Shown: positions 50,058 through 54,354 of the stretch, piece by piece | How the letters are laid out: the number at the start of each line of letters is the position of its first letter | How positions within the stretch are numbered: position 1 is the first letter of the stretch | NCBI GenBank assembly: GCA_027488975.1 | Contig: JAIYAQ010000010.1 | Location: 1 to 64,000 of the forward strand | Direction of reading: 5' to 3' | Length of the DNA stretch: 64,000 nt | DNA from: Cyanobium sp. E1_MAG_00006 | GTDB taxonomy: Bacteria > Cyanobacteriota > Cyanobacteriia > PCC-6307 > Cyanobiaceae | Program-made: the position numbers and the translations under genes | Notes under the pieces: generated by a model | What the model was told of the DNA's origin: nothing | The model's database searches: none | The model's input: the letters and a program-made list of their open reading frames with translations, nothing else

Positions 50058-51221
50058 ATGCGCTGGCTCAGCAACGTCCGCCTGCCGGGTAAGGAGGGGT
50101 TCTGGCGCCTCGGCCTCGACGCCGAAGCGCGCATCGCCGCCGTGCACCCCCTGGCGCCCGGCAGTGCTGCCAGCGGCGAGAACTGGCACGGCGATCGCCT
50201 CAGCCCAGCGGCGGTGGATCTGCAGATCAACGGCGGCCTCGGCCTGGCCTTCCCCGAGCTCACCGAGGCCGACCTGCCCACACTGCTGCAGCTGCTCGAC
50301 ACCCTCTGGGCCGACGGGGTGGAAGCGATCAGCCCCACCCTGGTGACCTGCGCCACGGCCGACCTGCGCCGCGCCCTGGCGGTGCTGCAGCTGGCACGCT
50401 TGGAACAGCGCCCGGAGCGCTGCCGGCTGCTGGGGGCCCACCTGGAGGGGCCATTTCTCGAACCCAGCCGCCGCGGCGCCCACCCGGCCCAGCACCTGGC
50501 CTTGCCGAGCCCGGCGGCCCTGCAGGAGCGCATCGCCGGCTTCGAGGACGAGATTGCCCTGCTGACCCTGGCGCCGGAGCTGCCGGGCGCCCTGGAGCTC
50601 ACCCGGCAGCTGACGGAGCGGGGCGTGGTGGTGTGCCTGGGCCACAGCGCCGCCACGAAGGCTCAGGCCGAGGCGGGCTTCGAGGCCGGCGTGCGCATGC
50701 TCACCCACACCTTCAATGCCATGGCGGGCCTGCATCACCGCCAGCCGGGGCCGGTGGCGGCTGCCGCCCTGCGCGGCGACATCGCCCTAGGCCTGATCGC
50801 CGACGGCGTGCATGTGGCGCCGGCGATGGCGGTGCTGCTGCAGCGGCTGGCGCCGCAGCAGCTGATGCTGGTGAGCGATGCCCTCGCCCCCTACGGACTG
50901 CCGGATGGCACCTACCGCTGGGACGAGCGTGCCCTGATCGTGGAGGCGGGCAGCTGCCGCCTGGAGGACGGCACCCTGGCGGGGGTGACTCTGCCGCTTC
51001 TGGAGGCGGTGCGCCGCCTGGCCCGCTGGAGCGGCGATGCCGACGGGGCGATCGCCGCCGCCACCCTGCACCCCCGGCGGCTGCTGGGGGACCACCGGCC
51101 GATCGAGGCGCTGCTGCTGGGACTGCCCCTGGCCGACACCCTGCGCTGGCGCGGCACGGCGAGCGATCTGCAGGGCCACCGCACCGAATCGACCCGGAAG
51201 CGGATCGCGCCATCTGAATAG
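50058..51221 (+). CDS. nagA: N-acetylglucosamine-6-phosphate deacetylase
   Basis: NagA deacetylates GlcNAc-6-phosphate for cell-wall sugar recycling. The 387-residue amidohydrolase shows [31 protein letters not shown] with a metal-binding Glu, [10 protein letters not shown] and [15 protein letters not shown] with metal-binding histidines, and [10 protein letters not shown] with the catalytic Asp. It precedes chlM by 34 bp. This nagA-chlM order recurs in picocyanobacteria. Confidence 0.92.
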
Positions 51222-51255
51222 GATCCGCGCCACAGAGCACCCCCAGGCCCCGCCC

Positions 51256-51966
51256 ATGTCCGCGACCGTTGAGACCGCCAAGGCCGCCGAGAAGCAGGAG
51301 GTGAAGGGCTACTTCGAGACCACCGGCTTCGATCGCTGGAACCGCATCTACAGCGATTCGGATGATGTGAACAAGGTGCAGCGCAACATCCGCATCGGCC
51401 ACCAGAAAACGGTTGACAACGTGCTGGCCTGGCTGCAGGAGCAGGGCGATCTGGCCAGCCGCAGCTTCTGCGACGCCGGCTGCGGTGTGGGCAGCCTGAC
51501 GCTGCCGCTGGCCCAGCTGGGGGCGGGCTCGATCGCCGCCTCCGACCTCTCCGCCGCGATGGTGCAGGAGGCGGAGCGCCGCTCGATCGAAGCCGCTGTA
51601 AAGCCAGGCCAGATCAGCTTTCTGGCTTCCGATCTGGAGAGCCTCATGGGTCGCTACGACACGGTGATCTGCCTGGATGTGTTCATCCACTACCCGCAGC
51701 AGCCGGCCGAGGAGATGGTGCGCCATCTTGCCTCGCTGGCCGAGCGGCACCTGCTCGTGAGCTTCGCCCCCTACACCCCCCTGCTGGCGCTGCTCAAGGG
51801 CATCGGCCAGCTGTTCCCCGGCCCCAGCAAAACCACCCGCGCCTACACCCTGCGCGAGGAGGGCATCGTCAAAGCGGCGGCTGAGGCCGGCTTCGTGCTC
51901 AAGCGCCGCAGCCTCAACAAGGCGCCCTTCTACTTCTCGCGGCTCCTGGCCTTCGAGAAGGCCTGA
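51256..51966 (+). CDS. chlM: Magnesium-protoporphyrin IX methyltransferase
   Basis: ChlM methylates Mg-protoporphyrin IX with SAM in chlorophyll synthesis. The 236-residue protein has KGYFETTGFDRWNRIYSDSDDVNKVQRNIRIGHQKTV, the SAM loop CDAGCGVGSLTLPLAQLG and YDTVICLDVFIHYPQQPAEEMV. The N-terminal ten residues are Ala/Lys-rich. It ends one base before the convergent RluA-like gene. Confidence 0.96.
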   Translation: MSATVETAKAAEKQEVKGYFETTGFDRWNRIYSDSDDVNKVQRNIRIGHQKTVDNVLAWLQEQGDLASRSFCDAGCGVGSLTLPLAQLGAGSIAASDLSAAMVQEAERRSIEAAVKPGQISFLASDLESLMGRYDTVICLDVFIHYPQQPAEEMVRHLASLAERHLLVSFAPYTPLLALLKGIGQLFPGPSKTTRAYTLREEGIVKAAAEAGFVLKRRSLNKAPFYFSRLLAFEKA

Positions 51967-51967
51967 T

Positions 51968-53038
51968 TCAGGCGACTCCGGTCTCCAGCAGCGGCGGCAG
52001 CGGGGCCTGCAGCTTCAGAAGCTGGCCGTCCGGGCTGGTGAGATCGAGGCGGTGGGCGTGCAGCTGGTAACCGCCATCCCCTGGCAGGGCCTCGGGATGG
52101 GCCTGCCCCCCCGGCCGGTAGAGCGGATCGCCGAGCAATGGCGCGCCGAGGGCGGCGGTGTGGATGCGGATCTGGTGGGGCCGGCCGGTGGCGATCGACA
52201 CCGCCACCAGGCAGCTGTCTTGGCGGCGCTCCAGCAGGGTGAGGGCGCTGCGCGACGGCAGGGCCGCCGGGTCATCCGGCGGGGCCGCACACCAGATCTG
52301 GCCCAGGCGCGGATGGGGGCGTCGGCTGATCGGTGTGGAGAGCGGCCGGGTTTCTCCGATCGCCCAGTCGGCCGGCAAGGGCTGGGTGAGGGCGCGATAC
52401 AGCTTGTGGCACCGCTGCGGTAACAACGGCGATGGCTCGCCGGGCCGGCCACTGCTGTCGCGCAGCAGGGCACTGAGCCAGGCGCGACTGGCGGCGGAGC
52501 GGGCACACACCAGCAGGCCGGAGGTGAAGCGGCCGAGGCGATGGACCGGCCGAGGCAGACCCGGGGCATCGGCGCCGGAGCGGATCGCACCGGCGCTGAT
52601 CACACCGGATCGGGCCCAGCCCTCCAGCTGCGCCAGCAGCGTGTGGGCCAGGAAACCGCCGGCGGGCAGCACCGGTAGGCCGCTAGGTTTGTTGACCACC
52701 AGCAGATCGCCGTCGTCGAACACGATCGATTGCTGCTGCAGCACCGGCACGGCGGCCTCCTGCCAGGGGGGCCGATGCCAGACCAGCCGATCGCCCGGCT
52801 GCAGGGGCCCATCGGCCCGGAGCCTCTGGCCGTTGCACAGGATCTCGCCGGCGGCCAGGCGCTCCTCCCACACCCGCTGATCCGAGTGCGGATAGCGGCT
52901 GGCGTAGAAGGCAATAGTGCTGGCCGCGGGCTCGCGGACGCGGTCGCGGTAGAGGTGACCGGCGTTCAAGGCCGCAGGCAGCCACGGCGCATCGCTGGCT
53001 GCGTCGCCGGCTGCGCCTGTGCCGGGATCGCTACTCAA
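51968..53038 (-). CDS. RluA-family pseudouridine synthase-like protein with altered catalytic site
   Basis: A 356-residue protein with an S4-like RNA-binding segment (about 52-88) and an RluA fold: DDGDLLVVNKPSGLPVLPAGG (about 108-128), PRPVHRLGRFTSGLLVCARS (162-181), and a C-terminal GRPHQIRIHTAALGAPLLGDPLY. The canonical catalytic motif is HRLDxxTSG; here residue 169 is Gly (codon GGC, 52532-52534), so the essential Asp is absent. Everything else around it is intact. Some plant and bacterial relatives are also described with HRLG, so this may be a distinct subgroup rather than a mutation. TTG start at 53038 overlaps the rre1 stop by 8 bp. Confidence 0.87.
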   Translation of the reverse strand: MSSDPGTGAAGDAASDAPWLPAALNAGHLYRDRVREPAASTIAFYASRYPHSDQRVWEERLAAGEILCNGQRLRADGPLQPGDRLVWHRPPWQEAAVPVLQQQSIVFDDGDLLVVNKPSGLPVLPAGGFLAHTLLAQLEGWARSGVISAGAIRSGADAPGLPRPVHRLGRFTSGLLVCARSAASRAWLSALLRDSSGRPGEPSPLLPQRCHKLYRALTQPLPADWAIGETRPLSTPISRRPHPRLGQIWCAAPPDDPAALPSRSALTLLERRQDSCLVAVSIATGRPHQIRIHTAALGAPLLGDPLYRPGGQAHPEALPGDGGYQLHAHRLDLTSPDGQLLKLQAPLPPLLETGVA

Positions 53039-53783
53039 CCAGGCTGTTCTCGAGGGCGTAGCGCACCAGCTCCGTTCGGCTAGCGGTGCCGGTCTTGGTG
53101 AACAGACGGCTCACATACTTCTCGACGTTGCGGATCGAGGTTTCCAGCCGGCGGGCGATCTCCTTGTTCATCATTCCCTCGGCCACCAGCTGCAGCACCG
53201 AGGCCTCACGCGGGGTGAACTCGTGGCGGATGCCGCCGCTGGGCTTGCGGCTGCCACCGGTGCCCAGCAGCGAGCGGATCTCGGTGATCTGCTTGGCCAT
53301 CTGACCGATATCGGCATCGGCGAAGCGGGCGGCCTCCGCCAGCAGACGCTCCTGGCGGCGCACCACGTTGCGCACGCGGGCCACGAGCTCGTCGGGATCG
53401 AACGGCTTGGGGATGTAGTCGTCGCAGCCGGCCTGGAAGCCCTCGATGCGATCGGCCGTCATCCCCTTGGCGGTGAGGAAGATCACCGGCGTGCCGCCGA
53501 GGCGCTCATCGTCGCGCAGCTTGCGCAACAGGCCGTAGCCATCGAGCCGCGGCATCATCACGTCCGAGATCACCAGATCCGGCAGCAGCTCCTGGGCCTT
53601 GGTCCAGCCGTCGTCGCCATCGACGGCGGTGGTGACCTGAAAACCCTCGTCCTCGAGATAGGCCTGCACGGCGGTGCGCAGGCCCGGTTCATCGTCCACC
53701 AGCAGCAGGCGGACCGGTGGTGCGGGCTGGGCCGTTGCCTCTGACGGGGCTTCGGCGGCCAGGGAGTCGGGTTCGAGGCTCAT
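53031..53783 (-). CDS. rre1: NarL/LuxR-type response regulator, Rre1/Ycf29-like
   Basis: A 250-residue two-domain regulator. The receiver (about 24-140) has Asp30-Asp31, phospho-acceptor Asp74 in LVISDVMMPRLDGYGLLRKLR, and Lys126 in YIPKPFDPDELV. The LuxR HTH (about 183-243) reads FTPREASVLQLVAEGMMNKEIARRLETSIRNVEKYVSRLFTKTG. This matches the Rre1/Ycf29 group, which with Hik34 or Hik2 controls heat, salt or redox genes in other cyanobacteria. The ATG at 53783 follows an unconserved open stretch. Orthology is inferred from motifs, without alignment. Confidence 0.82.
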   Translation of the reverse strand: MSLEPDSLAAEAPSEATAQPAPPVRLLLVDDEPGLRTAVQAYLEDEGFQVTTAVDGDDGWTKAQELLPDLVISDVMMPRLDGYGLLRKLRDDERLGGTPVIFLTAKGMTADRIEGFQAGCDDYIPKPFDPDELVARVRNVVRRQERLLAEAARFADADIGQMAKQITEIRSLLGTGGSRKPSGGIRHEFTPREASVLQLVAEGMMNKEIARRLETSIRNVEKYVSRLFTKTGTASRTELVRYALENSLVE

Positions 53784-53817
53784 GGCCCGCAGGGCGGCAG
53801 GAAGCGGTGGCCGCAAT

Positions 53818-54354
53818 CTATCGAGCACCTCCGGAAATCACCTGCTGCTGCTCGCGCAGGGTTCCCGAATAGCCCAGCCGGCGGGCCAGGGCGCTGAGCG
53901 TGGCCGGGTCCTTGCCGGCCTGCTCGGGATAACAGGCCGCCCACCAGATCTGATGGTTGAGCCGGTTGGACTCGGTGACCATGCCGCCGGGGTTGAGCTC
54001 GAGGATCAGCAGATCCCTGCCGCGGCGGGTGAGCCGCATCGGCGCCTCGGGGGCGCAGCGCAGGGTTTCCACCGCCAGCTTCACGCCGCTGGGCTCCTCC
54101 AGCCAGACCACGATCGTGCGGGCGCTCGGATCGCGGGGATCGGGCTTGGCGTCGTGGACGCCGATGGCATAGGTGCCCTCCATGGTCTGCCACTGCCGCA
54201 GCAGCACCAGCCCGGCGGGGCGCTGCTGCTCCGAATTGCGGAACGGGTTGCTGGCATCCGGCGCTCCGATGGACGTCTGGGCCGCTGCAGGCAGCGATGC
54301 GGCCAGCAGTGACAGCAGGGCTGCCAGGGCTGAGCGCTGACGAACAGCGGCCAT
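53818..54354 (-). CDS. Secreted protein of unknown function
   Basis: A 178-residue protein with a classic signal peptide (MAAVRQRSALAALLSLLAASLPAAAQ, cleavage after AAA or AAQ). The mature part is polar with EGTYAIGVHDAKPDPRDPSARTIVVWLEEPSGVKLAVETLRCAP, suggesting a beta-rich domain, but I recognise no family. It is leftward with rre1 and rluA-like. The open frame continues upstream antisense to the cysteine desulfurase, so the ATG at 54354 is the sensible start. Confidence 0.7.
   Translation of the reverse strand: MAAVRQRSALAALLSLLAASLPAAAQTSIGAPDASNPFRNSEQQRPAGLVLLRQWQTMEGTYAIGVHDAKPDPRDPSARTIVVWLEEPSGVKLAVETLRCAPEAPMRLTRRGRDLLILELNPGGMVTESNRLNHQIWWAACYPEQAGKDPATLSALARRLGYSGTLREQQQVISGGAR

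Follow-up and report, generated by a model that had tools for sequence, protein, structure and literature searches.

An RluA-family gene in a cyanobacterial genome carries glycine in place of the catalytic aspartate of pseudouridine synthases, and the substitution is a fixed feature of a bacterial subgroup that otherwise keeps its uridine-binding pocket. The gene lies in a 64,000-nucleotide stretch of Cyanobium sp. E1_MAG_00006, referred to here as the window. Comparison of related sequences and a predicted structure suggest, with a probability of roughly 0.6, that these proteins are conserved pseudo-synthases: they would bind RNA, flip a uridine out of it and hold that uridine without isomerising it, such that the benefit to the cell comes from binding.

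Glycine at the catalytic position

The gene occupies positions 51968-53038 on the minus strand and encodes 356 amino acids from a predicted TTG start, with an eight-base overlap with the end of the upstream gene. Its motif II, PVHRLGRFTSGLLV (residues 164-177; 52508-52549, minus), includes Arg167, a putative base-flipping residue by virtue of the role described in PMC3919597 (in excerpt). At 52532-52534 the plus strand reads gcc, which gives the minus-strand codon GGC for Gly169, and this residue aligns with the aspartate of the paralogues and of sister proteins with an HRLD motif. The first-pass annotation had reported a glycine codon where GAC is expected in an otherwise preserved protein, and both statements are borne out. 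Motif III, GRPHQIRIH, is present at residues 285-293 (52160-52186, minus) and includes Arg291, and the other pocket residues are kept, among them the active-site Tyr214 in KLYRAL (52397-52399, minus).

Profile searches place the protein within the RluA family at some distance from its characterized members. PF00849 (PseudoU_synth_2) matches residues 111-296 with 55.9 bits, above the curated Pfam cut-off of 26.8. The NCBIfam model for the RluA subfamily, TIGR00005, gives 142 bits, below its cut-off of 192.7, and the equivalog models for RluD (49.9 of 351), RluC (47.9 of 378) and RluA (44.7 of 286) fall far short of theirs. No Pfam S4 domain is matched in the 356-residue protein at E values up to 1, PF00849 being the single match. 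Four other PF00849 matches in the same genome all retain the usual aspartate, as HRLDK (L001), HRLDR (L002) and, in one plus frame each of L003 and L004, GRLDA.

Directly upstream is a response regulator with a receiver domain and a LuxR-type helix-turn-helix (53031-53828, minus). The convergent downstream gene (51037-51966, plus) encodes ChlM, magnesium-protoporphyrin IX methyltransferase, which TIGR02021 matches over residues 86-305 with 213.2 bits against a cut-off of 158.9; the frame as listed is over-extended at its start. A further frame, at 50058-51221, resembles N-acetylglucosamine-6-phosphate deacetylase (206 bits, NagA cut-off 225.65) and has no Pfam match at 0.001.

Homologues were drawn from the window's own order (61 genomes), 44 named loci, Cyanobacteria (292 genomes), the phylum to which Corallococcus G317 belongs (193 genomes), that of G318, titled 'Proteobacteria bacterium DTSAM18' (377 genomes), and that of G320 and G321, whose titles are Latescibacterota and Gemmatimonadetes (64 genomes). 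The G317 and G318 phyla are taken to be different, as no genome is common to both samples. An alignment with homologues from other cyanobacteria had been proposed when the substitution was first noticed, and it shows the glycine to be common to a subgroup that includes members from other phyla. Against the subfamily profile, 237 fetched loci score above 200 bits; of these, 233 have glycine, four have aspartate and none has any other residue. Some of these loci are one gene fetched repeatedly; counted as distinct proteins, the figures are 204 and four. Three additional aligned rows with a gap at this column represent second fragments of genes that the count already includes. Counted per genome, glycine occurs in 64 cyanobacterial genomes, 66 of the Corallococcus phylum, 18 of the G318 phylum and 24 of the G320 phylum, in addition to the 44 named loci, and aspartate in one genome of the Corallococcus phylum and three of the G318 phylum. 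Two aspartate members found later, L255 (HRID) and L260 (partial), also belong to the G318 phylum. A sequencing error is rejected because so many related loci (233/237) carry the same residue.

The glycine itself has been retained while its codon has drifted. All four glycine codons are used in the 204 distinct proteins (GGG 89, GGA 58, GGC 34, GGT 23). Synonymous changes at this codon number at least 24 on one tree (54 HRLG rows) and 52 or more on another (99 rows), and three changes between glycine and aspartate are inferred on each tree, counting the split from the outgroup.

Ancestry, distribution and loss

HRLG proteins, together with a few HRLD proteins, form a group that is split from the outgroup HRLD sequences with support of 100/100 in the second tree and likewise in the first. 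A clade restricted to HRLG proteins is not rejected in the first tree (p-AU 0.424). In the second, which has a different outgroup and one extra HRLD row and whose bootstrap had not settled, such a clade is borderline rejected (p-AU 0.044), and a clade of HRLG proteins plus L209 is not (0.216). The aspartate-bearing L165, L166, L167 and L255 fall inside the HRLG group with support of 100/99 in this second tree, with its unsettled bootstrap; L165-L167 have no resolved position in the first. L209 (3001-3888), from the Corallococcus phylum, has the motif HRLDRGTSGL with a GAC codon and sits among HRLG rows with moderate support (89/80). Its sequence may represent a natural return to the catalytic aspartate; no second HRLD relative was found among 16 genomes of its order. 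L209 and the four aspartate proteins placed inside the group by one tree suggest that the scaffold may still permit catalysis.

Judged by sequence, the subgroup extends beyond cyanobacteria to Myxococcota and at least two other phylum-ranked groups. Presence counts in Cyanobacteria, the Corallococcus phylum and the G318 phylum are lower bounds, with up to 7, 11 and 5 candidates scored per genome, respectively. At least 50 of the 292 cyanobacterial genomes have the gene at more than 200 bits against the alignment; carriers number at least 21 of 36 in the same family, at least 29 of 103 in the rest of the class and, among the candidates scored, none of 153 outside it. The cyanobacterial scores are bimodal, the next match below the 200-bit group reaching 163.5. 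In the Myxococcota (the Corallococcus phylum) at least 67 of 193 genomes carry the gene, one of them with aspartate. For the matches labelled Latescibacterota and Gemmatimonadetes, contamination is rejected as the whole source because 24 of the 64 genomes of that phylum have the gene. A search of plasmids with the protein as query returned eight records, each below 60% identity and 80% coverage, and yielded nothing useful.

Within the window's own order, 37 of 61 genomes have the gene, including one frame-split copy (G011). The 24 without it are genomes of 1.6-1.9 Mb; G033, also 1.9 Mb, has it. In all eight gene-less genomes examined out of these 24 (L276-L283), the response regulator and ChlM genes are convergent, their open frames are 7-62 bases apart, and the HRLG gene is missing. 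The function of the HRLG protein is thus dispensable, as small genomes in the order cleanly lack the gene, and it is non-essential, since 242 of the 292 cyanobacterial genomes have no match above 200 bits among the candidates scored.

At 34 of 36 named loci of Synechococcus/Cyanobium type (L036-L079 minus L063, L064, L072-L076 and L079), the response regulator immediately precedes the HRLG gene in the same orientation. In the two exceptions, L057 and L065, the gene starts no more than about 220 bases from where the sequence ends. No such neighbour occurs in the examined flanks of 29 loci from other cyanobacterial families (L100-L109, L168-L185 and L187). One of the 36 loci, L066, has a Phycisphaerae title yet groups with Synechococcus.

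Pocket conservation, selection and fold

Residues expected to contact the flipped base are nearly invariant. Among distinct HRLG proteins the base-flipping arginine is kept in 204 of 204, the pocket tyrosine in 202 of 202 (two uncovered) and the motif-III arginine in 201 of 201 (three uncovered). In a 180-protein HRLG alignment the pocket columns checked show 99-100% identity, and the mean over 290 columns is 59%. Columns at 100% are His166, Arg167, Leu168, Gly169, Gly174, Lys212, Tyr214, Gly285, Arg286, Gln289, Ile290, Arg291 and His293; among the 204 distinct proteins Lys212 differs in two and is uncovered in one. The motif-III histidine is more variable (His 156, Glu 34, Gln 11). Glutamate at this position, for example in GRPEQIR or GRSEQIR, is seen in the Corallococcus phylum (L072-L074, L076, L079, L112, L113, L120-L147, L188-L190 and L192).

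A nearby aspartate that takes over catalysis had been named as an observation that would overturn the idea of a lost active site. Alignment with the HRLD sisters and the paralogues reveals no acidic column specific to HRLG proteins, which argues against such a compensating residue. The six columns that are at least 80% Asp or Glu (32, 94, 108, 109, 304 and 321) are acidic in at least three of the four HRLD sisters as well.

Substitution rates indicate that the gene is under purifying selection. Over 511 pairs with dS between 0.05 and 1.2, which are related and therefore not independent, the median dN/dS is 0.22, and the window gene gives 0.18-0.42 against eight relatives. The HRLG protein evolves faster than the adjacent response regulator and ChlM in all eight comparisons. 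Between the window gene (51968-53038) and its counterpart in a close relative, L036 (2507-3526), dS is 0.62, compared with 0.10 for the response regulator, 0.19 for ChlM and 0.14 for the nagA-like frame. This excess suggests replacement of the allele at the HRLG locus by recombination.

The reading frame was checked in L186 and eight other odd cases, a set that does not include L111. In L186 (G011, same genus) the gene is divided between two frames at profile positions 182-188, the sole clear disruption seen. Apparent internal stops in L106, L177, L191, L194, L160 and L110 were rejected as disruptions, because each falls on a terminal codon of the matched range and marks a gene end. The frames of L187, which has an insert, and L181 are open.

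The predicted fold is that of RluA, RluC and RluD. An AlphaFold2 model built with 42 sequences has a mean pLDDT of 88.9 and a pTM of 0.85. Its pseudouridine-synthase fold domain (about residues 101-356; 51971-52738, minus) matches RluC (1xpi) and RluA (2i82) with Z of 20.7 and rmsd of 2.7-2.8 over 206-208 residues. The N-terminal region with its HRPPWxE linker (about residues 26-100; 52739-52963, minus) appears S4-like from fold comparison. Full-length RluD (2ist) aligns to model residues 26-356 with Z of 19.3, but with an rmsd of 7.4; large full-length deviations (7.4 to 13.6) may reflect a different orientation of the two domains. The E. coli enzymes thus share this fold and, like canonical relatives in general, the arginine, tyrosine and motif III, but they possess the catalytic aspartate, and the HRLG protein scores far below their equivalog cut-offs.

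Both domains also align (Z 19.1-19.5, rmsd 13.4-13.6) with RluA-fold proteins from trypanosome and Leishmania mitoribosomes, 6yxx_EC mt-LAF3, 7aoi_XP and 7am2_BZ. According to their entry titles these are components of large-subunit assembly intermediates, and they provide a structural precedent for the fold in ribosome assembly, although their sequence match to the HRLG protein is weak (E 1e-5 to 8e-8).

A probable flip-and-hold role without isomerisation

In pseudouridine synthases the catalytic aspartate is described as the sole absolutely conserved residue that is essential for activity (PMC7822408, in excerpt). The same excerpt reports that the pseudouridine signal is undetectable with TruA D70A, names RluA D57A as an inactive control and states that E. 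coli RluA and TruA still bind their substrates when inactive. In RluB, the arginine two residues before the aspartate stacks in the position vacated by the flipped base, and motifs II and III engage both grooves (PMC3919597, in excerpt). An HRLG protein would probably operate in a similar way. The two-domain protein would dock on structured RNA, with rRNA or tRNA as the most likely target, and the arginine of the HR motif would flip a uridine into the pocket, where the conserved tyrosine and the motif-III arginine would hold it. Without the aspartate the uridine could not be isomerised. Any benefit would arise from binding itself: the protein would act as a chaperone or placeholder while RNA folds or ribosomes assemble, a role we infer partly by analogy with the kinetoplastid proteins. 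The absence of catalysis, the binding of RNA and its target are likewise deductions, and flip-and-hold without isomerisation is the simplest mechanism. The first-pass annotation had left the choice between another mechanism and a non-catalytic RNA binder; sequence comparison favours the binder, with a uridine pocket that appears to be still under selection.

Dead enzymes seldom keep a pocket this strictly frozen, and different chemistry fits it too. HRLG proteins might still act on the flipped uridine through a substrate-assisted route or yield a product other than pseudouridine. This is unlikely, though the best of the alternatives. The pocket is invariant save for the aspartate, and in one RluB crystal the conserved tyrosine is covalently bound to the target base, which indicates that a tyrosine here is capable of reacting. 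However, that bond arose once isomerisation had taken place, on the opposite face from the aspartate and 'perhaps fortuitously', and RluB Tyr140Phe retains about 3% activity, for which reason the tyrosine is called non-essential (PMC3919597, in excerpt). Moreover, the alignment offers no new candidate catalytic acid, and known synthases are inactive as aspartate mutants (PMC7822408, in excerpt).

Somewhat less probable is that the HRLG protein binds RNA in partnership with an active pseudouridine synthase present alongside it in the cell. For plants, such a partnership is suggested in PMC8910892 (in excerpt), and four relatives of canonical appearance are kept in the window's genome. Yet weaker matches (E up to 1e-25; motif read in a minority) occur in 235 of the 242 cyanobacterial genomes that have no HRLG-level match, so the presence of such relatives does not track that of the HRLG gene. 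There is a slim chance that the protein reads pseudouridine already present in RNA, the missing aspartate making room for the product, as the retention of base-flipping and pocket residues without the aspartate might allow. A decaying synthase relic is very improbable: the split gene of G011 (L186), protein change faster than in two neighbours and the gene's absence from the order's small genomes would fit decay, but the median dN/dS, the invariant pocket, the occurrence in several phyla and the open frame in the eight other odd cases oppose it.

The pseudo-synthase reading has possible parallels in eukaryotes. RluA proteins of XXHRLG type are described in plants, for example AtRLUA7 (AT3G52260) and ZmRLUA7, and their loss of activity is judged probable by the authors (PMC8910892, in excerpt). 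They are likened to the bacterial proteins here by the aspartate-to-glycine change in the motif alone. PMC2956550 (in excerpt) gives At3g52260 as no more than a candidate homologue of pseudouridine synthases. The first-pass annotation had mentioned HRLG in some plant and cyanobacterial relatives: the cyanobacterial ones are confirmed by sequence, and the plant ones are known from PMC8910892. Human RPUSD3, described as an RluA-family protein with the same exchange, has no noticeable activity in cells; it is a close vertebrate homologue of RPUSD4 (PMC12716993, in excerpt) and so presumably lost its aspartate independently.

A broader and more tentative proposal is that one subfamily, spread over at least four phyla, flips and holds (or newly alters, or reads) a specific uridine yet makes no pseudouridine, and that plant HRLG proteins are its plastid-derived descendants. 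No paper on bacterial HRLG-type proteins was found among the open-licence papers searched. Their occurrence in several bacterial phyla contradicts the 2022 claim, in the excerpt of PMC8910892, that the type is absent outside plants and algae. Lifting that restriction makes tractable bacteria available for finding the function and, the gene being dispensable, a knockout should be feasible. A fixed glycine in a retained pocket constitutes a natural test of what pseudouridine synthases do beyond their chemistry.
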